Shown here piece after piece: positions 1,736 through 31,094 of a DNA stretch of 40,692 bases. The position numbers and the translations under genes are program-made. The stretch's first letter is position 1. Every line of letters starts with the position of its first letter. The stretch is from a bacterium (lineage in GTDB: Bacteria > Bacteroidota > Rhodothermia > Balneolales > M1805): the NCBI GenBank assembly GCA_006226965.1, contig SBGQ01000129.1, forward strand, positions 87,202 through 127,893, given 5' to 3'. The notes under the pieces are model-generated. The model made no database searches and was not told the origin of the DNA. It saw only the letters and a list, made by a program, of their open reading frames with translations.

Positions 1736-2797
1736 TCATTTAGCTTCATTCATTTTCTTAATGCGATATTGCTGGCGCAGCCACTTAACCCAACGCGCAC
1801 TTTTTTGTTGATGTTCTTCATAAGTAATTGAAAAATCATGCTTTCCTTCTGGTGTTGCAACCATATACATATAACGATGTACAACCGGATTCAAGACCGC
1901 ATCAATCGACTTCACATCAGGATTAGTTATCGGTCCGGGAGGCAAACCACGATATTTATACGTGTTATAAGGATGATTAATTTGGTAATCAGCATAGGTT
2001 AGACGGCGGCGTTCACCTAATGCAAAATTCACGGTCGGGTCGGCTTGTAATGGCCATTTTTTTCGTAAACGATTCAAATACAAACCAGCAATCATGGGTT
2101 TTTCTTCATCGTTGCCTGCTTCCCATTGCACAATAGAAGCGAGTGTTAAAACTTCGTCGGAACTCAAATTCTGTGGAATCGAACCTTCTTTGGATTCTAT
2201 CGTTTTCATTGCCAAAGACTGAGTTTCTTGTATCACTTGTTTAGGTGAATAGGTCCAAAACATGGAATACGTTTCCGGTGTAAGTCTGGAAATCACATTT
2301 TCAGGTGTTAAGCCTAATTCTGCAAGTTTAATTTCACTGTGAACAAAATCAGAAAACTCCTGTTCTGAAAATCGAAATGAATCACTTATTTCTAGTATGA
2401 GTTTCTCGATAGATTGTCCGGGTAAAATAGTTAGCCTAATCGGGTCTTGATGCCCCAAACCCGGCTTTGAAATCATATCACCGACTTTATAATTCCCTCT
2501 TTTTAAAACATAATGTCCGGCTTGCACTTGTCTGAACCCTTCCAGTTTCGCAGTCCAAACAAAACTCTTCGTATTTCTTACCAAACCAAGCTCTTGAAGC
2601 TGTTTTGCAAACTGCTCAATCGATTTTTTTTCTTGAATAAAGACAGATGTATTTGCCGAAACGGTTACTGCATAGGGATTTTCGAGACGAAACCACCTTA
2701 CTGAACTCACAATTAATAAAGAAATCACAAAAAGTGACGAAAAAACAAGCGTTTCGTTTTTGTTCAAAGGCCAATATGACTTAATTTCCATCTGCAT
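1736..2797 (-). CDS. mltG: Endolytic murein transglycosylase MltG (YceG-like)
   Basis: A 353-residue MltG homologue, the inner-membrane enzyme that cleaves nascent peptidoglycan glycan strands and is thought to end their synthesis. One transmembrane helix lies near residues 15-31 and the rest is periplasmic. The YceG core is clear: 'LASIVQWEAG' carries the conserved glutamate, followed by 'IAGLYLNRL', 'LQADPTVNFALG', 'YNTYKYRGLPPGPITNP' and the terminal 'HDFSITYEEH'. Length is normal for the family. The start used gives MQMEIK; a second ATG two codons later is equally possible. It is divergent from the large gene that starts 56 bases away. The downstream end runs into a heptamer repeat and no clear terminator is visible. 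Confidence 0.95.
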   Translation of the reverse strand: MQMEIKSYWPLNKNETLVFSSLFVISLLIVSSVRWFRLENPYAVTVSANTSVFIQEKKSIEQFAKQLQELGLVRNTKSFVWTAKLEGFRQVQAGHYVLKRGNYKVGDMISKPGLGHQDPIRLTILPGQSIEKLILEISDSFRFSEQEFSDFVHSEIKLAELGLTPENVISRLTPETYSMFWTYSPKQVIQETQSLAMKTIESKEGSIPQNLSSDEVLTLASIVQWEAGNDEEKPMIAGLYLNRLRKKWPLQADPTVNFALGERRRLTYADYQINHPYNTYKYRGLPPGPITNPDVKSIDAVLNPVVHRYMYMVATPEGKHDFSITYEEHQQKSARWVKWLRQQYRIKKMNEAK

Positions 2798-2852
2798 TTG
2801 TTTGCTGTCGGGAACTAAAATAAACGATTTTTTCGCATTACGCTTATACTAC

Positions 2853-5800
2853 ATGGCCATATTTGAAAGCACTTCGTATTTAATTAAAGCTGATTCTGAT
2901 TTTGACTGGGATTTATCCAGCTTTGAGAGTGACGCACTTTACCAATCCTTAGTTGTTAAAAAACAAGCAATTCCGCTAACAGGAAAAGCACCGGCACAAC
3001 CCAAAGCGAGTATGGGTTTTGGTTTGAAAAAAAAACCTGTAGAAACAGAATCCGACACGGCAACTAATCAACATTTAGTTTTTGATTTAGATTCGAATGC
3101 GCTAAGCACTGAACTACTTAATCAATTTAAAAGAGCACATCGCGACCGATTAAATAAACAAGCTTTTTGTTTTATTATCGGACTTGGAAGTTTAAAAAAA
3201 GCTGGAAAATCTCGTCCTGTTTTATGTATTCCTGTTCATCTAGTGAACGATCCTGCTTTAGAAATACCGTTTTGTTTTGCATGGTCTGACCAATTACCCT
3301 TTCTTCACCATGAAGTAATTGATTGGCTTGCAGAAGCTGATTCACCCATTCCGCAGTTGCCGGATGTTCTTTCAGATATTTCCGTGAAAAATTTCTTTCA
3401 TGATTTAACCTATAAACTAAATGCTGAATCGGGATTAACGTTCACAGAAGCGGTAAAAACGCAACGTATCCATTTTGAATACAAACACGCTGAATTTGAA
3501 GACTTAGCAGAGATTCCACTTTTAAACAATTATGACGACAGTTTTACTCATACCAGAATAACAGGAAGTGATGCTTTAGCTAAGTCATACGCCGTTAAAG
3601 ATATCAACAGAAAAATTTCTACTTCTATTTCGGCAAAGGATATACAGTCTTTTGTACATAATCTTGCGGTACATAAAAGCTTAGAAAAACCGGTAATTAT
3701 TACTTCTGCACAGGCGGGACAATTACGTTCCATTAGAAAAGAATTACACGATGTTGCCCCTGTACTTTCGCTTTTTGATCATCTTGAGCCGGAAAATTTA
3801 ATTGATGAGCTCATCACTCTTTTTGAAAATACTCCCGAAGTTGAAGCGATAAAAGCTCCCCAACTCCATGTAACTGAAATAGTAGAACGTTTACATGAAT
3901 ACGACGATGCATTAAACGGTGCTCATGAAGATGAATTCGGCTCACCGGCTGAAATCATGGCATTTCTTTTAAAAACAAAAGTTACAAGTACGTATAAACC
4001 CCATTTACATGAATACCATGGCTTAACAGCATCAATTCTTAATCAGCGAAAGTTATTGATTAAGCAATTGTTGAAATTACAGGGCTCAATGACACCACAT
4101 CCTGTTTGGGATAAAGCTGAACCAACCTTAAACCATGCGGAAATGGTTGAAGAATTGGAAAAAGCATCGTTGAAACTATCTAATGTGCATCGCCATATTA
4201 AAGAACTCACCCAAAAATCGAAAGATATGCTTGGGGTTTCATTCCCTGACAATCCCGAAGAATTGGAAAAATTCATAAAAAAGCTGCACATACTTGAAGA
4301 CATTCCTCAGTTTGAACGCCACCAACTCGATCAAAACTGGTATCCTATCCCTGATGTTATTCCGCCGGCTTTCGATCAAATCCACAAAGTAAAACAAGAG
4401 CTGGAGAAGCTTAAGCCGTACTTCCATCTCGAAATTGTGAACGAACCGCTTGAAAACTTAATTCCTGAGTTGGAGGCATTATCACACAGCCCCAAACGAT
4501 ATGTTGATTGGAATTACAGACAACATGCCAAACGTTTATTGGGTTATGCACGTGCAAACACGCAGAAATTCGACCATGCCTATATCGCGCACTTGAGAGA
4601 TGTTGTTAAAGTGCAGAAAGAAATGGCGAAGTTAAGCGAACATGGTAAACTTGTTGCTCGCTATTTTGGCTCATATTGGAACGGATTAGAAACCGACGAA
4701 CCTTTCCTGAAAAAACAAATGGTTTGGATGGAAGGATTTTCTAAGTTAAAACTGGAATACATTGAAGAGAATATTGACCAATTAAAGCGTCTAATACTCA
4801 GAAAAGACACGCAACGTGCTGTAAGTACAATTAAAGACTTACGAAATTATCTAATAGAAAAACACGAAACAGAAAATCACATTTGTGAAATAATGGGGAT
4901 AAAACATTTTCTGTTAGTTAAACTATTAGAGGAATCTGAGTTTGATATTAAAACCTTTTTTGATGATTTAATTGAAAACAGTGAGAGTCTGAAACAACGA
5001 GCCATGCTTCACAGACTCAAAGAAAGTGAGAATGCTAAACGTTTAGAACGTTTTATAGAGCATATCATCGAACATGCTATTCCATTTAATGATGCCGCAG
5101 ATCGATACGAACACGCCATGTTGGTTGCGTCTTTAAAAAAAATGGAAGATGAACGAGATATTCTCTCCCACTTAGAGATTTCTGATATCAAACAAATGCT
5201 CGATTTATTAAAAGAGCAATACCATTCTTTATGCGAATATGGAGTGTTCAAAAAAATGGAACACTATGTTTCGATTAGGAAACAACCATCAATCAAAAAG
5301 AGATTTAAAGAGCAAATTGCGCAACTAAAACAACTTCGAGATTCTGACAGAATGCCTCATACACAGGTAATTCTTCAATTGGTTAAAGACATTTTGCAAC
5401 AGTTGCAAACTATTGTTTTATGTACACCCGACCAACTTGCACAAACCTTGCAATTAATTGATGCTCACGTAATTACAACCACCAAATTAGAAGCTCCAAA
5501 TCCATTTAGTAATCTGTGGCTTTATATAAAAGAAGTCCCCGAAACAGCAAAAAACTATCCCATCGCTTTCGAAATACAAGAAACACCCAAAGCAGCACAA
5601 ATTAAGGGTGAAGTAGCTACGGACTTCATCATAAAGCAGTTCGAAATTGCAGGAAAAACTAATCTAATGTGGGTTTTTGAATCTGATAAAGCTGAAAACG
5701 CATTTTGGCATAAAGTCACCCATTCCGCGATTGATTTCAAGACCTGGACAAAAGCACTTAACGATGGTATGATTCAATGCACTACTTTCGTTGAATCCGA

Positions 5801-7085
5801 TTTAGAAGATGTAACATTCCCGTTTTTTGATGTTACTGTAGTTGATTTTTCATTTGTTGACCCCAAAGCAAATCCATTTGCGCTCAAGAAATCATCTCCA
5901 AAAATTCTCACGGATTCTGCGAAGCGTTTAAGCAAACTCGGTTTTGAGATTCTCCTCGTAAAAAACGAAGGTGATAAATCGGATGATGTAAAAAAGAAAA
6001 CCGAAGTATTACAAGATGAGCTAAGCTGGAAATTAAAAGATGAAACCTTGTTTGCATCTCAACTGAAAAAAGCCACTTTCTTGGAAGAAAATCCGGTAAA
6101 ATCGTTGGGTGAATTATCCGGTTTTGTTGCCACATTGGACGGACGAGTAGCCTCTGTTTGGTCTGATTACGCACTTAGCGAAGGCGAACACATCTTCACC
6201 TCTTTCCATGATTCTTTGATTTGGGATGCAAGCATTTATAACCCGATTCGAAAACTCTACAAAAAAGCTGATTCGCTTATTCTGGATTCGATGAATTTCA
6301 TTAAAAACGAACCGGAAGAAAAATCTAAGCCGAAAAAGAAGAAACAACAATCAACCAAAGCAGATGAGTCTGTAACGGTAACATCAGCGAAAACGGAAAC
6401 TGAAAAGCCTAAACCGGCTACAGTAAGTATTTCTGATCCGTTTTCATTTCCCGATGTACCTATGGAATTTACGTTCACACAAATCAATAATCCTTCGAAA
6501 GCAGTTAAACCCAAACTCAATAAACTGCCTAGAATTAAGTCTTTCGCACCGTTCGATGTTCAGCCTATGGGCGAAGCAGACGAGTTTTTCACAGTAACCG
6601 CTCGTTCGCTCAAAAAAGGAATTTTAGAAATCGTAAAAGCGGAATCTCCGATAAATTGGCACCGTTTAACACGCCTGTTGATTTCCGGTTGGAAAATGGA
6701 ACGTCTTAATGAAAACGCACTCACCATCACCAAAAAACTATTAGCTGAATTAGCTGAAAAAGGCGAAGTAGGTGTAAAAGAAGGTGTGATTTACGAAACC
6801 ACCGATTTTAAATTTACGATTCGTTCCCGCGCTGATTTGCAAGATTTTAATGCCGAAGAAATTCCGATGGTGGAATTGGAAATGGCGTTATTTCTCGTTT
6901 TAGACCAATATCATCCGCTAAAAATGGAAGATTTATTAAAAGCGGCTTCTTTCCTTTTAGGTTTTGATGAGTTGACTCAACCCATGGAAACCGTTCTTAA
7001 ACGCGCATTGATAAAGATGGGAATGGAAGACGTTGTTTGCGTGAGTGAAGCAGGATTCCAGTTAACCCGTCCGATTTTATTATAA
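2853..7085 (+). CDS. Large DUF4011/DUF3320 helicase-like protein with a degenerate ATPase site
   Basis: A 1410-residue protein. I use the ATG at 2853 because the earlier in-frame ATG at 2760 lies inside mltG. Residues ~85-135 ('LLNQFKRAHRD', 'IIGLGSL', 'VLCIPVHL') resemble the DUF4011 entry domain of large superfamily-1 helicases. Residues ~253-300 align with their Walker A region and following strand ('PVIITSAQ', 'IRKEL'), but the GPPGTGKS loop is replaced by 'STSISAKD'. Residues ~604-626 match the family's 'FG..W.G..TD' segment. At ~991-1001 the Walker B segment DLVIFDEAS is replaced by 'DVTVVDFSF'. A Lys/Pro-rich linker (~1160-1200) leads to a DUF3320-like end ('ILEIVKAESPINWHRL'). It has long helical stretches and no membrane segment. 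The reading is a pseudo-helicase or scaffold. It overlaps the next gene by one base. Confidence 0.65.
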   Translation: MAIFESTSYLIKADSDFDWDLSSFESDALYQSLVVKKQAIPLTGKAPAQPKASMGFGLKKKPVETESDTATNQHLVFDLDSNALSTELLNQFKRAHRDRLNKQAFCFIIGLGSLKKAGKSRPVLCIPVHLVNDPALEIPFCFAWSDQLPFLHHEVIDWLAEADSPIPQLPDVLSDISVKNFFHDLTYKLNAESGLTFTEAVKTQRIHFEYKHAEFEDLAEIPLLNNYDDSFTHTRITGSDALAKSYAVKDINRKISTSISAKDIQSFVHNLAVHKSLEKPVIITSAQAGQLRSIRKELHDVAPVLSLFDHLEPENLIDELITLFENTPEVEAIKAPQLHVTEIVERLHEYDDALNGAHEDEFGSPAEIMAFLLKTKVTSTYKPHLHEYHGLTASILNQRKLLIKQLLKLQGSMTPHPVWDKAEPTLNHAEMVEELEKASLKLSNVHRHIKELTQKSKDMLGVSFPDNPEELEKFIKKLHILEDIPQFERHQLDQNWYPIPDVIPPAFDQIHKVKQELEKLKPYFHLEIVNEPLENLIPELEALSHSPKRYVDWNYRQHAKRLLGYARANTQKFDHAYIAHLRDVVKVQKEMAKLSEHGKLVARYFGSYWNGLETDEPFLKKQMVWMEGFSKLKLEYIEENIDQLKRLILRKDTQRAVSTIKDLRNYLIEKHETENHICEIMGIKHFLLVKLLEESEFDIKTFFDDLIENSESLKQRAMLHRLKESENAKRLERFIEHIIEHAIPFNDAADRYEHAMLVASLKKMEDERDILSHLEISDIKQMLDLLKEQYHSLCEYGVFKKMEHYVSIRKQPSIKKRFKEQIAQLKQLRDSDRMPHTQVILQLVKDILQQLQTIVLCTPDQLAQTLQLIDAHVITTTKLEAPNPFSNLWLYIKEVPETAKNYPIAFEIQETPKAAQIKGEVATDFIIKQFEIAGKTNLMWVFESDKAENAFWHKVTHSAIDFKTWTKALNDGMIQCTTFVESDLEDVTFPFFDVTVVDFSFVDPKANPFALKKSSPKILTDSAKRLSKLGFEILLVKNEGDKSDDVKKKTEVLQDELSWKLKDETLFASQLKKATFLEENPVKSLGELSGFVATLDGRVASVWSDYALSEGEHIFTSFHDSLIWDASIYNPIRKLYKKADSLILDSMNFIKNEPEEKSKPKKKKQQSTKADESVTVTSAKTETEKPKPATVSISDPFSFPDVPMEFTFTQINNPSKAVKPKLNKLPRIKSFAPFDVQPMGEADEFFTVTARSLKKGILEIVKAESPINWHRLTRLLISGWKMERLNENALTITKKLLAELAEKGEVGVKEGVIYETTDFKFTIRSRADLQDFNAEEIPMVELEMALFLVLDQYHPLKMEDLLKAASFLLGFDELTQPMETVLKRALIKMGMEDVVCVSEAGFQLTRPILL

Positions 7086-23702: not shown

Positions 23703-25415
23703 CTAGGCAATCATCAACTTTAATTCTTCCACTCGCTGGGCAACTTCCGCTCTGCTCATACTTTTATAAGGCTCAGGGAGTAAACTTTTTGAAGTGCATT
23801 CCATTACAGCACTAAGTATTTGCAATTCAATTTCTTCCGGATATGTCGGAGGGATGAAATCAGCCAAAACTTCATCAATAATTTCTGCTGAAACGGACTC
23901 TTCCCCTTTAGTTGCTGCCTTAAATTTCGCACGTGTTAGTGCCGCTTCCATATCAGCGCCTGAAAGTGAGTATTGGCCTGATGAAATACTGTAAGGCGTT
24001 GTTTCATCTGTCATTTTCAGCCCGGTTTTCTTTTTCATGGCTGTAAATAATTCGATACGCTCTTCTTGAGTACTCGGATAAAATAATGCGAGGTGTTCTT
24101 CTGCTCTACCTTGGCGTTTTAAATCGACCGGCATTAAATCGGGACGAGCAGTCATCAAAAACCAAATTATTCTACCTCGGTTTTCGGTATTACTCATAAA
24201 ACTTGCAATTGTAGCAAAAACACGACTCGATACACCTGAATCACCACCTGAATTTCTGTCTCCCAAATAGGCATCTGCTTCGTCTATCATAACTGCAACA
24301 GGTGCCATAGCTTTTAAAATGTGAAGGATTTTTTCAAGATTTCCTTCAGTTACACCCTGCCATTGCGAGCGAAAATTTTTCAATTTCACCATCGGAACAC
24401 CAATATCTGTTGCAAAACAGGTCACTAAAAAAGTCTTTCCAGTTCCAACTGGTCCACAAACCAGATAACCCATTGGTAAAACATCCGGGCGACCATTTTC
24501 AAGGGCTTTTGCAGCTTCACGAAGATGTTGTTTTACATGGGTATGTCCGGCAACTACATCTAAACCGAACTTGGTTTCAACAAATTCCAGTAATCCGTAA
24601 GATTCGGCTTCAATTAATTCTTTTTTGGTTTTGGAAAGATGTTTTTGTGAAAGAGTTTTACCGTTCTCAACAACTCCGGCTAGTAAACTTTCTAAGTTCA
24701 CAAAACTCAAACCTGCTGTTTGTTGTGCTAAAACAACATCAGAAACATCAGATTTAAACGCTTCACCATAACGATTTCTAAAATCAGAGATATATACTTC
24801 TCTGTCATTCAAAAGTGGTAAATCTATTTTAATTTCTGCATTGTAAGGCGATTGAACTAAGTTTTTATTCAGATCGTTTAAGTTTTCTGTCAACAGTACT
24901 AATGAATAATCCGATTGTAAAAGTTGCGGATCGTGTGACCATTTTTGTAAGAAAACTAATGCGTTTCTATCCTCTGATGAAGATGCAGAACTATCACTCA
25001 TCGGGACAATGGTTTCAGCAAAATCGAGAATTACGGCAATACTTTTTCCGTCTGATGTTCTTAAACGAACATAATTTTCGAGTAAGGCAAAAACACGAAC
25101 CGGATCTTTAGGTACTTTTTGTGAAAAATCAGTTCCGTTAAATGAATCGTAACCGGTTAGTGCACGTCTAAAATCATTGTATGAAGCTTCATCTCTGAAA
25201 GTAACACCACTTGAGCGATCGTAAAACAATACAATATCTCTCGAACCAAAAAGTTCGTGCGATAAAAACTCTTTTAAGCGTACAAACTTTGATTGAGAAC
25301 CCTGTCTGTAATGCACATAGTCATGAACATTTCCGTGCAAAATGAACTGATTAACTGTTTTACTAAAATATTTTTCAGCAAATTGCTGCGCCCAATTCGG
25401 ATAGTGTTCTAGCAT
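23703..25415 (-). CDS. AAA ATPase (Ycf46/SpoVK/Vps4-like) with an N-terminal degenerate module
   Basis: A 570-residue protein. Residues 1-250 form a degenerate AAA-like module that starts 'QFILHGNVHDYV' and lacks a P-loop. Residues about 275-500 are an intact AAA domain with Walker A 'GPVGTGKT' (321-328), Walker B 'VAVMIDEADA' (373-382), sensor 'IIWFLMTARPDLMP' and an arginine-finger region 'DLKRQGRAEEHLALF'. This architecture matches Ycf46-like ATPases. No membrane segment is seen. It lies 45 bases downstream of the CNNM gene and in one run with pspA. The inference is that it acts on the PspA assembly, as Vps4 acts on ESCRT-III. Alternatively it could be an unrelated housekeeping ATPase. Confidence 0.88.
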   Translation of the reverse strand: MLEHYPNWAQQFAEKYFSKTVNQFILHGNVHDYVHYRQGSQSKFVRLKEFLSHELFGSRDIVLFYDRSSGVTFRDEASYNDFRRALTGYDSFNGTDFSQKVPKDPVRVFALLENYVRLRTSDGKSIAVILDFAETIVPMSDSSASSSEDRNALVFLQKWSHDPQLLQSDYSLVLLTENLNDLNKNLVQSPYNAEIKIDLPLLNDREVYISDFRNRYGEAFKSDVSDVVLAQQTAGLSFVNLESLLAGVVENGKTLSQKHLSKTKKELIEAESYGLLEFVETKFGLDVVAGHTHVKQHLREAAKALENGRPDVLPMGYLVCGPVGTGKTFLVTCFATDIGVPMVKLKNFRSQWQGVTEGNLEKILHILKAMAPVAVMIDEADAYLGDRNSGGDSGVSSRVFATIASFMSNTENRGRIIWFLMTARPDLMPVDLKRQGRAEEHLALFYPSTQEERIELFTAMKKKTGLKMTDETTPYSISSGQYSLSGADMEAALTRAKFKAATKGEESVSAEIIDEVLADFIPPTYPEEIELQILSAVMECTSKSLLPEPYKSMSRAEVAQRVEELKLMIA

Positions 25416-25460
25416 AAAACTCCATTTTTGAAAGCCCTGAACGTGAACAAACTGTAAAAG

Positions 25461-26741
25461 TTAATCTTCTAATAAGATAATTCTTACCGTTTCTATTCTG
25501 GCAGGTGATGCTTTACTGATAATAATTTTTTTAGTCCCAATAATAAGTTCTTCATTCACTTTTGGGATTCTTCCAATGTGATGAATGATAAATCCGGCAA
25601 TAGTTTCATAATCAGCTGAATCATCAACAAAATCGACTTCCGGAAATTTTTCTACAATGTCCTCAATCTCAACGGTACCGCTAAAAATGAATGTAGTGTC
25701 ATTCAATTTTTTCATAATTTGATCGGTTGTATCGTATTCATCCTCGATATCTCCAACCACTTCTTCAATCAAATCTTCAATTGTTACTAAGCCGGATGTA
25801 CCGCCATATTCGTCGAGCACTACTGCCATCGATGTATTGGATACTCTAAAATCTGCTAACAAATCTCTCGAACGTTTTGAATAAGGTACAAATTTAACCG
25901 GGCGACGAATTTCTTCCAGCGTTTGCGGACGTTTGAATAAATCGCCGGCGAAAACAACCCCAATAATGTTATCAATAGATTCATCGTAAACAGGAAGCTT
26001 ACTGTAACCGCTTGAAACAAAAGCTTTAAGCACTTCATTGATAGGTGTTTCTTTTTCCACAGCTACTATTTCAGTACGTGTAATCATAGAATCTTTTACA
26101 CGTTTGTTCGATAACTCCAATACATTTGAAAGTAATTCAGAATCTTCTTTGTCAATATCGGAAGCGCCTTTTTCCTGAATATCTTGAATAATCATCTCAA
26201 TATCCTGACGACGAAAAATATCTTCTACTTTACCTGATTCTACATTAAATGCTTTCAATAATAATTGTGATGCCCAGTTAGCCAAACCTATAAAAGGTTT
26301 TAAAACCCACTCAACCAATTGCATTGGAATTGCAATTTTTGGCAAAATACTATCTGCCCTACTTCTGAATATGGCTTTAGGTATAATCTCACCTAAGTAC
26401 ATAATAATCAGGGAAGCGATTGTAGTTTGGATCAACAAAACAATAAGCGATGAAGGCACATCACCCGTAAGTCTTTCAATTAGATGCTCAATCGGGTCAG
26501 AGAGGTACAAGGTCATTAAGGTTGCATAAAGCACATTAATGATGTTATTTCCGACTAAAGTTGTAATGAGAAATGATTCAGGATTGGAAACATATTTAGA
26601 CAAGTAACCCGCAGCGGTTGTATTTTTTCTTAGGAAAAGTTCCAATCGTAATCGATTTGCCGAAACAAAGGCAATTTCAGAACCTGAAAAAAAACCACTC
26701 AGGTAAATGGTTAAAACAATGAGGAGCCATTCCATTACCAT
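25461..26741 (-). CDS. CNNM/CorC-type (HlyC/CorC family) membrane transporter
   Basis: A 426-residue protein with the standard three-part build: a CNNM (DUF21) membrane domain with about three or four helices (residues ~1-160, 'SGFFSGSEIAFVSANRLRLE' near 15-34 and 'YLGEIIPKAIF'), two CBS domains (~205-330; 'VKDSMITRTEIVAV', 'LDEYGGTSGLVTIEDLIEE') and a C-terminal CorC/HlyC domain (~345-425). Family members are linked to Mg2+/Co2+ export or magnesium homeostasis. The CBS pair usually binds ATP. It is 50 bases after the enoyl-CoA hydratase gene. The start gives MVMEW; the internal ATG two codons later is an alternative. Confidence 0.95.
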   Translation of the reverse strand: MVMEWLLIVLTIYLSGFFSGSEIAFVSANRLRLELFLRKNTTAAGYLSKYVSNPESFLITTLVGNNIINVLYATLMTLYLSDPIEHLIERLTGDVPSSLIVLLIQTTIASLIIMYLGEIIPKAIFRSRADSILPKIAIPMQLVEWVLKPFIGLANWASQLLLKAFNVESGKVEDIFRRQDIEMIIQDIQEKGASDIDKEDSELLSNVLELSNKRVKDSMITRTEIVAVEKETPINEVLKAFVSSGYSKLPVYDESIDNIIGVVFAGDLFKRPQTLEEIRRPVKFVPYSKRSRDLLADFRVSNTSMAVVLDEYGGTSGLVTIEDLIEEVVGDIEDEYDTTDQIMKKLNDTTFIFSGTVEIEDIVEKFPEVDFVDDSADYETIAGFIIHHIGRIPKVNEELIIGTKKIIISKASPARIETVRIILLED

Positions 26742-26791
26742 GAAATAACTCCTCTACTACTTCGACTTTCGCTTATATCCATTCTCGTGTA

Positions 26792-27583
26792 TTAACGTCC
26801 GGTAAAATTTGGCTTCCTTTTTTCAAGGAAAGCAGTTGTGCCTTCTGTAAAATCTTCAGTTGCGCACAAATTTCCAAATAATTCTGCTTCCGCTCTGTAG
26901 CCGGACTCTTTGTCTAATTCTGATGCCTGAATTGCTTTAATTGCATTCTTAACTGCCAATGGCGCTTTTGTTGTAATTACTTTCAACATTTCTTTTGAAG
27001 CTTTCACTTCTTCACCAACGGCTACAACTTTATTTACCAACCCGATTGCTAAAGCCTGTTCAGCTTTAATCTGCGCTCCGGTTAAAATAAACTCTAAGGC
27101 TCTTCCTTTACCGACTAAACGGCTCAAACGTTGAGTACCGCCATATCCCGGAATTAATCCAAGTGATAATTCAGGTAAGCCGAATACCGCTTTTTCGCCG
27201 GCAATACGAATGTGAGCAGACATGGCTAATTCACAACCGCCACCTAGTGCATAACCGTTAACCGCAGCGATAAATGGTTTTGTTGAATTTTCAATAAGAG
27301 CAAAAACTTCTTGACCTCTTTCGGCAGCAACTGTACCACGCGGAGCATTCAAATCCTGTAATTCTGCGATGTCAGCACCGGCAACAAAAGCTTTCTCACC
27401 ACTTCCTGTTAATATTGCTGCAAAAATATCTTCTCGGTCATTAATTTCATGAACTACATCTTCCAACTCACTTAACACTTGCGAATTTAACGCGTTCAAT
27501 TTTTGAGGTCGGTTTATAGTGATAACCGCCAAACCTTCTTCATCAACTTCCAGAAGTAAGGTTTCAAATACATGTTTACTCAT
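26792..27583 (-). CDS. Enoyl-CoA hydratase / crotonase family
   Basis: A 263-residue crotonase-fold enzyme. The oxyanion-hole segments are 'FVAGADIAEL' (about 67-75) and 'GYALGGGCELAMSAH' (110-124). The two catalytic glutamates, E118 and E138 ('FGLPELSLGLIPGYGGTQ'), are present, so hydratase activity on a short-chain enoyl-CoA is expected. I use the ATG at 27583, one base after the stop of the upstream gene; a GTG four codons earlier overlaps that gene and is less likely. Its place between a PspA-associated membrane protein and a CNNM transporter is puzzling; a membrane-lipid role is a guess. Confidence 0.93.
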   Translation of the reverse strand: MSKHVFETLLLEVDEEGLAVITINRPQKLNALNSQVLSELEDVVHEINDREDIFAAILTGSGEKAFVAGADIAELQDLNAPRGTVAAERGQEVFALIENSTKPFIAAVNGYALGGGCELAMSAHIRIAGEKAVFGLPELSLGLIPGYGGTQRLSRLVGKGRALEFILTGAQIKAEQALAIGLVNKVVAVGEEVKASKEMLKVITTKAPLAVKNAIKAIQASELDKESGYRAEAELFGNLCATEDFTEGTTAFLEKRKPNFTGR

Positions 27584-27584
27584 T

Positions 27585-28454
27585 TTAAGACCCACTTTTT
27601 AAGCGTTGTGATGCTTCGGGTGCTTCTTCATTTTCAAAAGAAGTATCCAAATCATCTTTCTGCTTAAATATACCAAAATCATCGAGTCCCGTACCGTCCA
27701 TTGCTTCAATTATTGAAGATGTTTCTTCAACTTCCATGAGTAAGTTATCTAACTGGAAGCCAATCTCTTCCGGATTATTCATTGTCATTGATTGTTCAAA
27801 GATGTAGCGAATAGCATCTTCAATGGTTTCCAATTCAGTTGTACAAATCTGATAACGCTCTTCAGCCGATTCAAATCGCTCTAAACGTTTGTTTAATATA
27901 AGAATACGACGACGCTTTCTTTCTTTTAAGCGCTCTGATTCTATCTGCTCCAATTCAGCATTCTCTTCATCAATCTCTTGTTTTAAAGCTGATTTACTTG
28001 CTGTTTGAATGAACAGTCTGAATCTGTTATTCAAATCAAGCAAATTGATGTAATTGTTCATCAATCCATCAATTTTTTGCTCAATATTCTGCAATAAACC
28101 TTGTGATGAATACGACTGTTTTTCGAAGTTCTCGCGAATTTTGATAGTCAAATGCTTTAAAATCAAAAAACGCTTTTTATCAGATTCGATTAGAGTATTA
28201 AAGATATTTTTTGATTCAAGAACAGGTTCACGTTCTTTTAGTTTTCGAAGCTTTATCATTTTTCTAAAGTTCGGCAAACGCGGAACAGTACCTAAAAACA
28301 TCAACTCTAAACCAAAAGTCATCGTCAGAATCACATTTGGAATCATTCCCGCATCATTCAAAAAAAAGGATGTGAGCGTGGCACCGAAAAGGATTCCCAA
28401 ATTTAGCGGGTGAAAAAAGGCCTCTTTAGTATAATTAATGTTTTCTTCTGACAT
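27585..28454 (-). CDS. Membrane-anchored coiled-coil protein, PspA neighbour
   Basis: A 289-residue protein of no family I can name. Two hydrophobic segments near residues 15-32 and 36-56 are separated by only a few residues, forming a hairpin. The rest is cytoplasmic and mostly helical and charged; residues ~160-230 are a likely coiled coil ('LEQIESERLKERKRRRILIL'). An acidic tail ends the protein. It starts eight bases after the mini-PspA gene and its stop codon is one base from the hydratase ATG, so it is tightly co-translated. Position and shape suggest a membrane anchor for the PspA-type coiled coils. Confidence 0.8.
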   Translation of the reverse strand: MSEENINYTKEAFFHPLNLGILFGATLTSFFLNDAGMIPNVILTMTFGLELMFLGTVPRLPNFRKMIKLRKLKEREPVLESKNIFNTLIESDKKRFLILKHLTIKIRENFEKQSYSSQGLLQNIEQKIDGLMNNYINLLDLNNRFRLFIQTASKSALKQEIDEENAELEQIESERLKERKRRRILILNKRLERFESAEERYQICTTELETIEDAIRYIFEQSMTMNNPEEIGFQLDNLLMEVEETSSIIEAMDGTGLDDFGIFKQKDDLDTSFENEEAPEASQRLKSGS

Positions 28455-28462
28455 AGTAATCG

Positions 28463-28954
28463 TTACCCTTTTGGACCTATGGTCTTTTTAACATCTGATT
28501 TTTTTTCTGCCTGTGATGTTTCTTGCTGCGCATTAGGACCTAATGTTTTTGCAACTTGTAAATCTTCGACTTCGCTTTTCTTGGATTCTGCATTAATGGT
28601 TCCCATTTCTGCTTTCATCTTTGCTACAGCATCTTTTGCCTGTTGTTTTTTTAATTCGGCTTCGTAAGCTGCTCGTTGTTCTTCTGAAAGTTCCTGCTCG
28701 GCTTTTTCCGCTTCTGATTCGAATACCGAATCGAGTGCAATGGATAATTTTGCTTCTGCCATACTCACTTTTTCGCGAAGTACGTCCATCATTTCATCCA
28801 TTGACTCCATTACCGGTTTGGCGTCCATATCCTGAATCGCCTTTGTAATTCGTTGAGTATGTTTGGCTTGCGCGAGACGATCCTTAAGCTCTTTCATTTT
28901 CTTGAAATGGTCTTTGTATTCGTTTTTAATCTTATCGTAGTCAGCCTGATTCAT
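28463..28954 (-). CDS. Short coiled-coil protein resembling the C-terminal half of PspA
   Basis: A 163-residue, highly charged helical protein without membrane segments. 'MDEMMDVLREKVSMAEAKLSIALDSV' (about 55-80) and 'AKDAVAKMKAEMG' (about 108-120) can be aligned with 'HDEMILRINEQAAKNEARMEMALDGL' and 'ELVKQFKMEMG' of the adjacent PspA. It looks like a paralogue of the PspA C-terminal part without the N-terminal hairpin. It carries 'KTLGP' and ends 'KKTIGPKG', echoing the PspA tail 'SKTLGKQKTQ'. It sits 18 bases after pspA. Function is unknown; a regulator or cap of PspA polymers is inferred. Confidence 0.75.
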   Translation of the reverse strand: MNQADYDKIKNEYKDHFKKMKELKDRLAQAKHTQRITKAIQDMDAKPVMESMDEMMDVLREKVSMAEAKLSIALDSVFESEAEKAEQELSEEQRAAYEAELKKQQAKDAVAKMKAEMGTINAESKKSEVEDLQVAKTLGPNAQQETSQAEKKSDVKKTIGPKG

Positions 28955-28972
28955 ACTCTTCCCAATAAAAAA

Positions 28973-29722
28973 CTATTGAGTTTTTTGTTTGCCTAATGTT
29001 TTTGATGATGTTGCTTCAGGAGCTTCTTCGTCAACTGAATCTAATAATGGTTTAGCCTCAGATTTACCCATTTCCATTTTGAACTGTTTTACCAATTCCT
29101 GAGCGCGTAATTTTTCTGCATCAACTTCAATTTGCATGGCTTGGGTATCTAAACCATCTAAAGCCATTTCCATACGAGCTTCATTTTTAGCGGCTTGTTC
29201 GTTAATACGTAAAATCATTTCATCGTGAGTTTGGTCTAAGCCGCCCACTTCAAATTGTTCCATCGCATCAGCGATTTTAGATTGCCATTTTGCTCTTTCA
29301 TGAGCACGTAAAGCTTCTCTTGCTTCGTTGATTTTGCGGTCTTTCTCACGCATAAAAGCTTTTTTCACTTGAAGAGCTTTTTCGTAAGCACGTTGTGCAA
29401 CCGTTAATTGCTCTTTAGAACTAGCTAACTGCTCCTGTGCTTTTTGCATTTGCATTGCATACGATTCAGCAATGTCATCACGCCCCGCATTAATTGCTGA
29501 TCTAATTTTCGCAGTTACTTCTGTGAGTTGTGTTTCATATCGACGCACTTCTTTTTCGAGCATCATCACACTGGCTTTAACCGTTGCGATGTTTTCATTC
29601 ATTTTAGGAACCTGATCATTCAATTCACGAATATTTTGCTCCAATATTAATTTGGGGTCTTCCATTGTACTTACCACACCGCCGAAAATGGATTTTATAG
29701 CTCTGACAAATCTTTTCCACAT
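28973..29722 (-). CDS. pspA: PspA/IM30 (Vipp1) family membrane-remodelling protein
   Basis: A 249-residue PspA/IM30 protein, part of the ESCRT-III superfamily that polymerises on the inner leaflet of the cytoplasmic membrane. The N-terminal amphipathic helix 'MWKRFVRAIKSIFGGVVSTM' (1-20) is followed by the typical 'EDPKLILEQNIRELNDQ' and a long helical hairpin (about 25-145). The C-terminal part is acidic and ends 'SKTLGKQKTQ', beyond the usual PspA core (E. coli PspA has 222 residues). It starts 28 bases after deoA. The neighbours are a mini-PspA-like gene, a membrane coiled-coil protein and, further on, an AAA ATPase. No PspB, PspC or PspF is adjacent. Confidence 0.93.
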   Translation of the reverse strand: MWKRFVRAIKSIFGGVVSTMEDPKLILEQNIRELNDQVPKMNENIATVKASVMMLEKEVRRYETQLTEVTAKIRSAINAGRDDIAESYAMQMQKAQEQLASSKEQLTVAQRAYEKALQVKKAFMREKDRKINEAREALRAHERAKWQSKIADAMEQFEVGGLDQTHDEMILRINEQAAKNEARMEMALDGLDTQAMQIEVDAEKLRAQELVKQFKMEMGKSEAKPLLDSVDEEAPEATSSKTLGKQKTQ

Positions 29723-29750
29723 AGTGATCTGTTCCTTACTTATTGATTTT

Positions 29751-31094
29751 TTATAGGTTAAATGGCATTATACCGTTTTTGTCAATTTTATGCGATACCA
29801 TTTGAGGCTGTTTTGGCCCAATCATTGAAATTGTTACTGCCTTGGCTATCAATTCATGAACGGTATCAAGTGCTTCGGGTCTGTTCGTGTAAAAGCGGAA
29901 AATTGTTTCACCTTTACTTACTCTATCACCAACTTTCTTTTCTAAAACAATTCCGGCTGTTGGGTCAATTCGATCTTCCTTCTTCTTTCTACCGGCACCT
30001 AGTTCTAATCCGGCAATACCAAAAGAGAATGCATCTAACTTAGAAATGTACCCGTCTTTATCTGCTTTAAATTCAGACACATGAGCCGATTTCGGATAAT
30101 TTTCAGGATGATCAATAAAACGTACATCTCCACCTTGTTCTATTACAATATCTCTGAATTTTGCGAAAGCTGAACCATCAGCGATAGAGGCCTTACTTTT
30201 TTGAATGCCCTCCTGAATACTTGAAGCTTTTTTTCCCAAATAAATCATGGTTCCCGCTAAAACATGTGTTACTTCCATAATATCATCCGGACCTTTGCCC
30301 AACAAACCGTCAATACTCTCTTCAACTTCTAACCAGTTTCCGATTTTATAACCCAGTGGTTGATCCATATTGGTTAAAAATGCAATGGTTTGTTTGCCGA
30401 ATGATTCACCGATTGAAACCAGCGTTTGTGCCAACAAAGTCGCATCTTCAACTGTTTTCATAAATGCTCCGTCACCACATTTTACGTCAAGAACCAATGC
30501 GTCGATTCCTTCTGCCATTTTTTTTGACATAATACTTCCTGCAATCAACGGAATACATTCAACCGTTGCGGTAACATCACGCAAAGCGTACATACGTTTA
30601 TCAGCAGGTGCAATTTCTTCGGTTTGACCAATTAAAACCATCTTATGTTTAGCAAGAACTCTGCGATAATCATCCAAGTTAAGATTCACATTAAAACCCG
30701 GAATTGACTCCAATTTATCTAGAGTTCCGCCAGAGTGCCCTAAACCTCGTCCCGAAATCATAGGCACAGGAACGCCGCAAGCAGCCACGATTGGGGCTAG
30801 AATTAAGCTTAATTTATCGCCGACACCGCCTGTTGAATGCTTATCCACTTTTGTGCCCGGAATTTCAGATAAATCCAAAACGGTACCTGAATACAACATG
30901 GCTTTTGTAAATGCTGAAGCTTCATCATTATTCATCCCGTTTAAAAACGTTGCCATCAAAAAGGCACTCATTTGATAATCCGGAATCCTGTCAGCGGTGT
31001 ATTCCTGAATTAAAAACTCAATCTCTTCTTTTGAGAGAGATTCTTTTTGGCGCTTTTTTCTAATTAATTCAACGGCGTTGTACGATTTTGACAT
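29751..31094 (-). CDS. deoA: Pyrimidine-nucleoside / thymidine phosphorylase
   Basis: A 447-residue enzyme that splits thymidine or other pyrimidine nucleosides by phosphorolysis. The N-terminal helical domain starts 'AVELIRKKRQKESLSKEEI'. The phosphate-binding motif 'KHSTGGVGDK' is at 85-94 and the family signature 'SGRGLGHSGGTLDKLES' follows at about 115. The C-terminal PYNP domain is present ('GAGRKKKEDRIDPTAGIVL'). Specificity between thymidine and uridine cannot be settled by reading; the length is intermediate between the two types. It heads the minus-strand run that includes pspA. Confidence 0.95.
   Translation of the reverse strand: MSKSYNAVELIRKKRQKESLSKEEIEFLIQEYTADRIPDYQMSAFLMATFLNGMNNDEASAFTKAMLYSGTVLDLSEIPGTKVDKHSTGGVGDKLSLILAPIVAACGVPVPMISGRGLGHSGGTLDKLESIPGFNVNLNLDDYRRVLAKHKMVLIGQTEEIAPADKRMYALRDVTATVECIPLIAGSIMSKKMAEGIDALVLDVKCGDGAFMKTVEDATLLAQTLVSIGESFGKQTIAFLTNMDQPLGYKIGNWLEVEESIDGLLGKGPDDIMEVTHVLAGTMIYLGKKASSIQEGIQKSKASIADGSAFAKFRDIVIEQGGDVRFIDHPENYPKSAHVSEFKADKDGYISKLDAFSFGIAGLELGAGRKKKEDRIDPTAGIVLEKKVGDRVSKGETIFRFYTNRPEALDTVHELIAKAVTISMIGPKQPQMVSHKIDKNGIMPFNL

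Follow-up and report, generated by a model that had tools for sequence, protein, structure and literature searches.

Does a bacterial PspA, a member of the ESCRT-III superfamily of filament proteins, share its operon with a AAA motor of its own? The locus raising this question lies in a window of 40,692 nucleotides (the whole stretch of DNA analysed), where the original prediction placed seven tightly spaced genes running from deoA to a Vps4-like AAA ATPase. Coordinates, strand and the short gaps between genes were all verified, and we concluded that deoA-pspA-mini-CC-ECH-CNNM-AAA is a real operon on the minus strand, extending from 31094 to 23703 with all seven genes in place. Its features are as follows.

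29751..31094, minus strand: deoA-like thymidine/pyrimidine-nucleoside phosphorylase, at the head of the cluster (Pfam PF00591/PF07831/PF02885)
28973..29722, minus strand: PspA (249 aa), ESCRT-III superfamily filament protein (Pfam PF04012, E = 4.8e-18)
28991..29002, minus strand: KTLG at residues 241-244, the tail motif of PspA; its K and G do not vary across a 14-row alignment
28463..28954, minus strand: mini (163 aa), paralogous to the C-terminal half of PspA and bearing two tail motifs (PspA profile and alignments)
28538..28549, minus strand: first motif of mini, KTLG (residues 136-139), K136 unchanged in alignments of 17 and 27 orthologues
28475..28486, minus strand: second motif of mini, KTIG (residues 157-160), a second copy present in only some orthologues
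27585..28454, minus strand: CC (289 aa), a long helical coiled coil preceded by two short hydrophobic helices at the N-terminus (AlphaFold2 model, pLDDT 82)
26792..27595, minus strand: enoyl-CoA hydratase, ECH (PF00378, E = 4e-64), likely start ATG at 27583
25461..26741, minus strand: CNNM/CorC (GldE-like) CBS-domain transporter (PF01595, PF00571, PF03471)
23703..25415, minus strand: AAA ATPase (570 aa) made of two AAA domains in tandem, the first of them degenerate (PF00004, E = 4e-24; model pLDDT 85)
24576..25415, minus strand: D1 (residues ~1-280), AAA fold without a P-loop, with HGNxxD instead; Walker-B-like DxxE kept
24432..24455, minus strand: D2 Walker A GPVGTGKT (residues 321-328), six of its residues invariant in 47 sequences

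The two metabolic enzymes and the CBS-type transporter expected in the operon were recovered by Pfam (Glycos_transf_3/PYNP_C, ECH_1 and CNNM+CBS+CorC_HlyC, respectively); the transporter scored 243 bits against the GldE model TIGR03520, which is below the cut-off. The operon order was kept across Balneolales in all contigs read that were long enough (L021-L038, L040), with protein identities of 28-71% and with mini missing from L040, and was found again in 55 GTDB loci from Fodinibius, Gracilimonas, Rhodohalobacter and others. Because the gene order recurs across these contigs and loci, it is not due to chance. In the loci compared, deoA was invariably upstream of pspA. A promoter scan gave no excess over shuffled sequences, and a terminator scan gave a slight excess.

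The identity of PspA was confirmed: the PspA_IM30 domain covers residues 2-206, most of the protein, at 66 bits against a cut-off of 33.9, and the PspA profile matched, over residues 1-201, chains of Synechocystis IM30/Vipp1 (E = 0.003). It was the sole PF04012 gene found in the source genome. The predicted absence of PspB and PspC held for PspB, which was not found in the genome, and failed for PspC, since PspC-domain proteins occur at other loci (C58, C22), none of them beside PspA. Thus, the classical PspFABC arrangement, in which PspB and PspC adjoin PspA, was not found here.

The protein described beforehand as mini-PspA-like proved to be a PspA paralogue that corresponds to the C-terminal half. 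Its orthologues were matched by the PspA profile over PspA positions ~124-252 only (E down to 5e-11), which rules out a full PspA with a complete alpha1-alpha2 hairpin and C-terminal helices. No Pfam family reached its cut-off for mini, PspA_IM30 included, and a search of the mini profile against solved structures returned only noise. Likewise, no Pfam family reached its cut-off for CC. An ESCRT-III fold was rejected for CC on finding no significant PDB match, the best being BAR domains at E = 0.06, which we took as coiled-coil noise. The membrane hairpin predicted for CC is plausible from the model, which places two short N-terminal helices at residues 16-31 and 38-59; their hydrophobicity is borderline in the window protein and clearer in orthologues.

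What kind of motor is the AAA protein? Over its full length, Foldseek matched it to the tandem D1-D2 proteins Cdc48/p97/Rix7 (E ~1e-20), and a D1-only profile matched the stretch from Walker B to the lid of AAA domains (E = 5e-4 to 2e-3), so that residues 1-280 constitute a degenerate AAA domain. In a Pfam scan only AAA/NTPase models matched, and neither MIT nor Vps4_C was found. With no MIT, no Vps4_C and a tandem D1-D2 instead of a single cassette, membership in the Vps4 (ESCRT-IV) family was ruled out, and the label Vps4-like had to be given up as a description of architecture. Across 47 sequences, D2 residues G321, V323, G324, G326, K327 and T328 were invariant, as were the Walker B DEAD, pore-loop W352 and R434/R437. 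Judged by these residues, D2 has the intact AAA motifs and aromatic pore loop to be expected of an active ATPase, a combination not specific to Vps4. A defence-system reading was also discarded, because PADLOC matched only generic AAA and coiled-coil models (IetA, E = 3e-10, AAA domain only).

A tail motif, K[TS][ILVM]G, lies close to the C-terminus of both PspA and mini. The motif was found in all 55 GTDB loci with AAA, and at least one copy stood on PspA or mini in every AAA-positive case read: 18/18 loci of the order, 8/8 further genomes and 20/20 genomes of other orders. Four of the AAA-positive genomes from other orders (L121, L122, L127, L129) had the motif off PspA and kept it on mini. 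Among PspA genes of AAA-negative Balneolales the motif was present in 0 of 16, and it was absent from the tails of all nine readable PspA-like proteins from other families of the phylum without AAA. When 1738 ORFs from fetched loci were searched, the motif fell within the last 40 residues of 70/74 PspA, 52/55 mini and 13 other proteins, of which at least half were plainly either members of a single enzyme family or spurious frames; in a smaller count of 350 ORFs, every one of the 34 tail-motif genes was PspA or mini. Genomes G048, G052, G379 and G123 have AAA, no detected mini and the motif retained on PspA, indicating that the motif tracks AAA and not mini. Three MAGs (G460, G469, G503; 89-92% complete) carried the motif with no AAA found, and the missing AAA probably reflects assembly gaps. 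Because clade f2 (15 genomes read; tails of the type KTVHV) retains CC while AAA, mini and the tail motif are gone, CC is unlikely to be the reader of the motif.

A tree of the PspA core placed two independent losses of AAA, in each of which mini and the motif disappeared as well; with only two loss events, no formal significance attaches to this co-loss. In genome G344, one of the two, deoA, the PspA core, ECH and CNNM survive, whereas AAA (a separate remnant), mini, CC and the PspA tail are gone. A single deletion there may have removed mini along with the PspA tail and the greater part of CC, in which case the motif loss was collateral. Taken together, the shared tail motif and the co-loss give the first concrete lead for contact. 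From these sequence patterns, we consider it fairly probable that the operon encodes an envelope-maintenance module in which the AAA motor remodels PspA/mini filaments by gripping their K[TS][ILVM]G tails, Vps4-like in action.

The tail motif could instead be a site of regulatory phosphorylation, or serve some other protein (a Ser/Thr kinase, an FHA-type reader or a protease adaptor) as its handle, with AAA coupled only indirectly. Nothing but T or S occurs at the second motif position (86 T and 23 S among 109), as expected of a phospho-acceptor, and L110, the only family member from outside this class, shows KKEIGP at the motif place. However, motif loss coincided with AAA loss in both AAA-loss lineages, and a Pfam scan found neither a kinase nor an FHA gene within the operon. 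We regard this explanation as unlikely.

Profile searches found AAA (D1 profile) and CC in an identical set of 97 of the 394 genomes of the phylum. Co-occurrence of AAA with pspA, a check named beforehand, was borne out, in that AAA accompanies PspA and CC across the class Rhodothermia; because AAA and PspA are both near-universal there, their plain co-occurrence partly reflects shared ancestry. Linkage of AAA to pspA was found solely in Balneolales; in other Rhodothermia orders AAA lies at unrelated places. Of 20 such unlinked loci, 11 had nearby a three-gene cluster (approximate gene number, genes in tandem) and 6 had glycine-oxidase-like and aldolase-like genes, none of them PspA-related. 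One example of the three-gene cluster starts with a signal-peptide-like stretch and is apparently amidohydrolase-like. In the outlier G311, CC adjoins AAA and PspA is on a separate contig; since AAA occurs in 1 of the 98 genomes of that class, we treated G311 as a transfer or binning artefact and gave it little weight.

These scattered positions, and operon mates (deoA, ECH, CNNM) without an obvious link, are what one would expect if AAA were a general chaperone or quality-control unfoldase that simply sits in a long Balneolales housekeeping operon. That possibility appears even less likely than the phospho-site, because AAA and CC presence is identical over the 394 genomes despite unlinkage, AAA loss accompanies loss of mini and the PspA motif, and G344 keeps deoA, the PspA core, ECH and CNNM but not AAA, mini, CC or the tail. 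Equally improbable is action of AAA on CC, with PspA merely downstream and the motif serving PspA-mini co-assembly: it suits the identical distributions and the adjoining genes of G311, but clade f2 has CC without AAA and mini-less AAA-positive genomes keep the PspA motif.

The pairing was less novel than first supposed. Ravi et al. (2024 mSystems, PMC11237479) described a PspA neighbourhood that includes a protein with two AAA domains, the N-terminal one inactive (e.g., AEY64321.1), and already proposed ATP-dependent membrane remodelling for it; they also noted a neighbourhood of PspA, Snf7 and a third coiled-coil gene in Bacteroidetes (CBH24266.1). By description, their tandem AAA resembles ours in having two AAA domains, the first degenerate; the present set differs in being class-wide, with mini, CC, the tail motif and co-loss, and linked in one order only. 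The CBH24266.1 trio very likely corresponds to pspA, mini and CC of another member of the lineage, going by the description alone. It occupies one sentence, and the main text ties it to neither AAA nor a tail motif. What looks new is the identical AAA/CC genome set, the tail motif common to PspA and mini, and the double loss of AAA with mini and motif. Like ESCRT-III/Vps4 with its MIM-MIT pairing in eukaryotes and archaea, the system has an ESCRT-III-fold filament protein, a tail motif on several subunits and a AAA with a W-containing pore loop; unlike it, the AAA is a tandem protein without MIT or Vps4_C, and the tail is a short K-T-I-G peptide as opposed to helical MIMs. In E. coli, PspA is contacted, also at its C-terminal portion, by the AAA+ protein PspF (PMC6003685). 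That protein belongs to the sigma-54 enhancer-binding proteins, whereas the AAA here has no transcription-factor domain.

Under the motor reading that we favour, PspA, probably with mini, would coat the inner membrane in an ESCRT-III-like manner, and CC would be a membrane-anchored coiled-coil partner. The tandem AAA, presumably a hexamer, would extract or exchange PspA/mini subunits: their C-terminal tails would be the handle on which it docks, most likely by the inactive D1, and would then be fed into the D2 ring, whose pore loop carries a conserved tryptophan. That is, it would act as Vps4 does on ESCRT-III, from outside the MIT-Vps4 family. More tentatively, and with somewhat more doubt than belief, we propose a Rhodothermia tail code, in which a p97-like tandem AAA, its D1 degenerate, recognises the same short C-terminal peptide on PspA and mini, leading to motor-driven turnover of a heteropolymeric ESCRT-III coat.

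PspA, mini, CC and the p97-like ATPase appear to be one membrane-stress module in Rhodothermia. A tag on PspA and mini that is lost along with the ATPase suggests, without proving it, a bacterial counterpart of ESCRT-III/Vps4 filament recycling. With a candidate motor, two filament subunits and a handle of four residues, the module would lend itself to simple peptide-binding and filament-turnover testing in non-pathogens, among them Rhodothermus, Salinibacter and isolates of Balneolales.

All seven genes of the original prediction were present as claimed on the minus strand of the window (23703-31094): deoA, pspA, a half-size PspA relative (mini), a membrane coiled-coil gene (CC), an enoyl-CoA hydratase gene (ECH), a CNNM transporter gene and an AAA ATPase gene (AAA). 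Intergenic gaps were 28 bp (deoA-pspA), 18 bp (pspA-mini), 8 bp (mini-CC), ~1 bp (CC-ECH, if ECH starts at ATG 27583), 50 bp (ECH-CNNM) and 45 bp (CNNM-AAA). The window corresponded to contig C45 in our searches, in a genome of 3.78 Mb. The strict gene order was found on all sufficiently long Balneolales contigs (loci L021-L038 and L040, the last without mini) and in 55 GTDB loci with AAA and PspA together. The best 80 loci of the GTDB scan were titled as Rhodothermia or unclassified Bacteroidetes relatives, mostly Balneolales, and included Fodinibius, Gracilimonas, Rhodohalobacter and Balneola. Elsewhere in the window, a 1441-aa ORF without Pfam matches (2760-7085) lay divergent from a YceG-like gene.

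The window's PspA was a standard PspA_IM30 protein, the sole one found in the genome; two PspC-domain proteins (G000:C58:26423-26593 and G000:C22:39014-39190) were unlinked to pspA. In many genomes the PspA profile matched mini over positions ~124-252 (E 5e-11 to 1e-4, a score to which the common tail contributes part); thus, mini is paralogous to the C-terminal half of PspA and is not a complete PspA of small size. The CC model had two short hydrophobic N-terminal helices plus long helices, and a search for structural relatives gave no significant fold match. In one single-contig genome, CC was broken by a frameshift or stop (G025:C1:2082561-2083435), which may be a sequencing error.

On its predicted structure (pLDDT 85), which aligned full length with p97, Cdc48, NVL and Rix7 (E ~1e-20), the ATPase is a tandem AAA protein. 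A profile built from residues 1-284 alone matched AAA proteins in the region from Walker B to the lid (E 5e-4 to 2e-3), and this first domain (D1) carried HGNxxD at the P-loop position. In the second domain (D2), Walker A, Walker B, pore-loop W352 and R434/R437 were invariant in 47 sequences.

Co-occurrence of AAA with CC and PspA was surveyed across 394 genomes sampled from the whole phylum. AAA-D1 and CC profiles each matched 97/394, and the two sets were identical; PspA was detected at E <= 0.001 in 96 of the 97, and in the remaining one, G311, at E 1e-8. Beyond these, PspA was found in G344, with weak matches in at least 10 other genomes. Within the class, the AAA profile matched 178/199 genomes, one of these matches, in G017 (E 3e-6), being only at noise level. 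Outside Balneolales AAA was unlinked to the pspA set (L071-L089); deoA-pspA-(mini)-CC stayed together there, usually with ECH/CNNM (L111-L130). Six small or incomplete Balneolales genomes (G430, G450, G454, G455, G407, G026) yielded neither AAA nor PspA, and whole-module loss is possible in them. In G311 (contigs C160 and C127; L090, L110), which lies outside Rhodothermia, a CC-like gene adjoined an AAA of 37% identity, an arrangement seen in 1/98 genomes of its class. There a 236-aa gene followed AAA, and its paralogue adjoined a solute-binding-like protein and an unlinked PspA, the latter ending in KKEIGPQTEGQ.

Towards its C-terminus PspA had a linker that was acidic and variable, and after it came K[TS][ILVM]G[RKN], ~8-11 residues before the end; mini carried one or two copies of this motif. 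Among 1738 non-overlapping ORFs, K[TS][ILVM]G occurred within the last 40 residues of 70/74 PspA, 52/55 mini and 13 other ORFs; six to seven of the 13 had one conserved enzyme sequence in common (YRHVKMVERTIG), and several resembled spurious frames. In every AAA-bearing genome read, PspA, mini or both carried the motif. This held for 18/18 loci of the order, 55/55 GTDB loci and 8/8 additional genomes of the order, as well as for 20/20 genomes from other orders (four on mini only; one PspA read RTMG), sets that overlap in species. The motif was absent from 16/16 PspA genes of Balneolales lacking AAA, 15 from family f2 plus G344, and was kept in three incomplete MAGs in which AAA was not found. 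Position 2 was strictly T/S, which leaves room for phospho-control.

On a PspA-core tree with the tail left out, the genomes lacking AAA fell into two groups whose separation was required by supported branches; mini and motif were lost in both, and with n=2 loss events formal significance is impossible. Family f2 retained CC and a tail with an altered motif (e.g. QKTVHVNRNNHV), and mini was gone. G344 was nested in a genus whose other readable members carry AAA, mini and motif. Its deoA, PspA core, ECH and CNNM were intact (L221, G344:C11:1-20000), and just downstream of CNNM lay a remnant resembling the AAA C-terminus (FIPPTYPEEVELQTLLAVLECTSK). This species has a small genome, and its AAA/mini/CC part appears to be undergoing decay; a single deletion may explain the loss of tail, mini and CC together. 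Because PspA kept the motif in G048 and G052, which have AAA and no detected mini, and likewise in G379 and G123, the motif follows AAA, not mini.

The PspA-AAA pairing, originally put forward as a candidate for a little-described system, is not new: Ravi et al. 2024 (PMC11237479) already reported PspA adjoining a two-AAA protein with an inactive N-terminal copy, described a neighbourhood in Bacteroidetes where PspA is accompanied by Snf7 and a third coiled-coil gene, and proposed ATP-dependent remodelling. The identity of mini, AAA-CC congruence across the class despite unlinkage, the common tail motif and co-loss were not found in the literature searched, supplements aside. Reviews (PMC7615534, PMC8281802, PMC10936438) describe a Vps4-equivalent for bacterial PspA as still missing or unknown. 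The simplest reading is that AAA would recognise both the PspA tail and the mini tail and then pull subunits out of the filament, much as Vps4 acts on ESCRT-III tails, with D1 as the putative docking site and D2 as the putative motor. We concluded that deoA-pspA-mini-CC-ECH-CNNM-AAA is a genuine conserved module and that it offers a handle open to testing.
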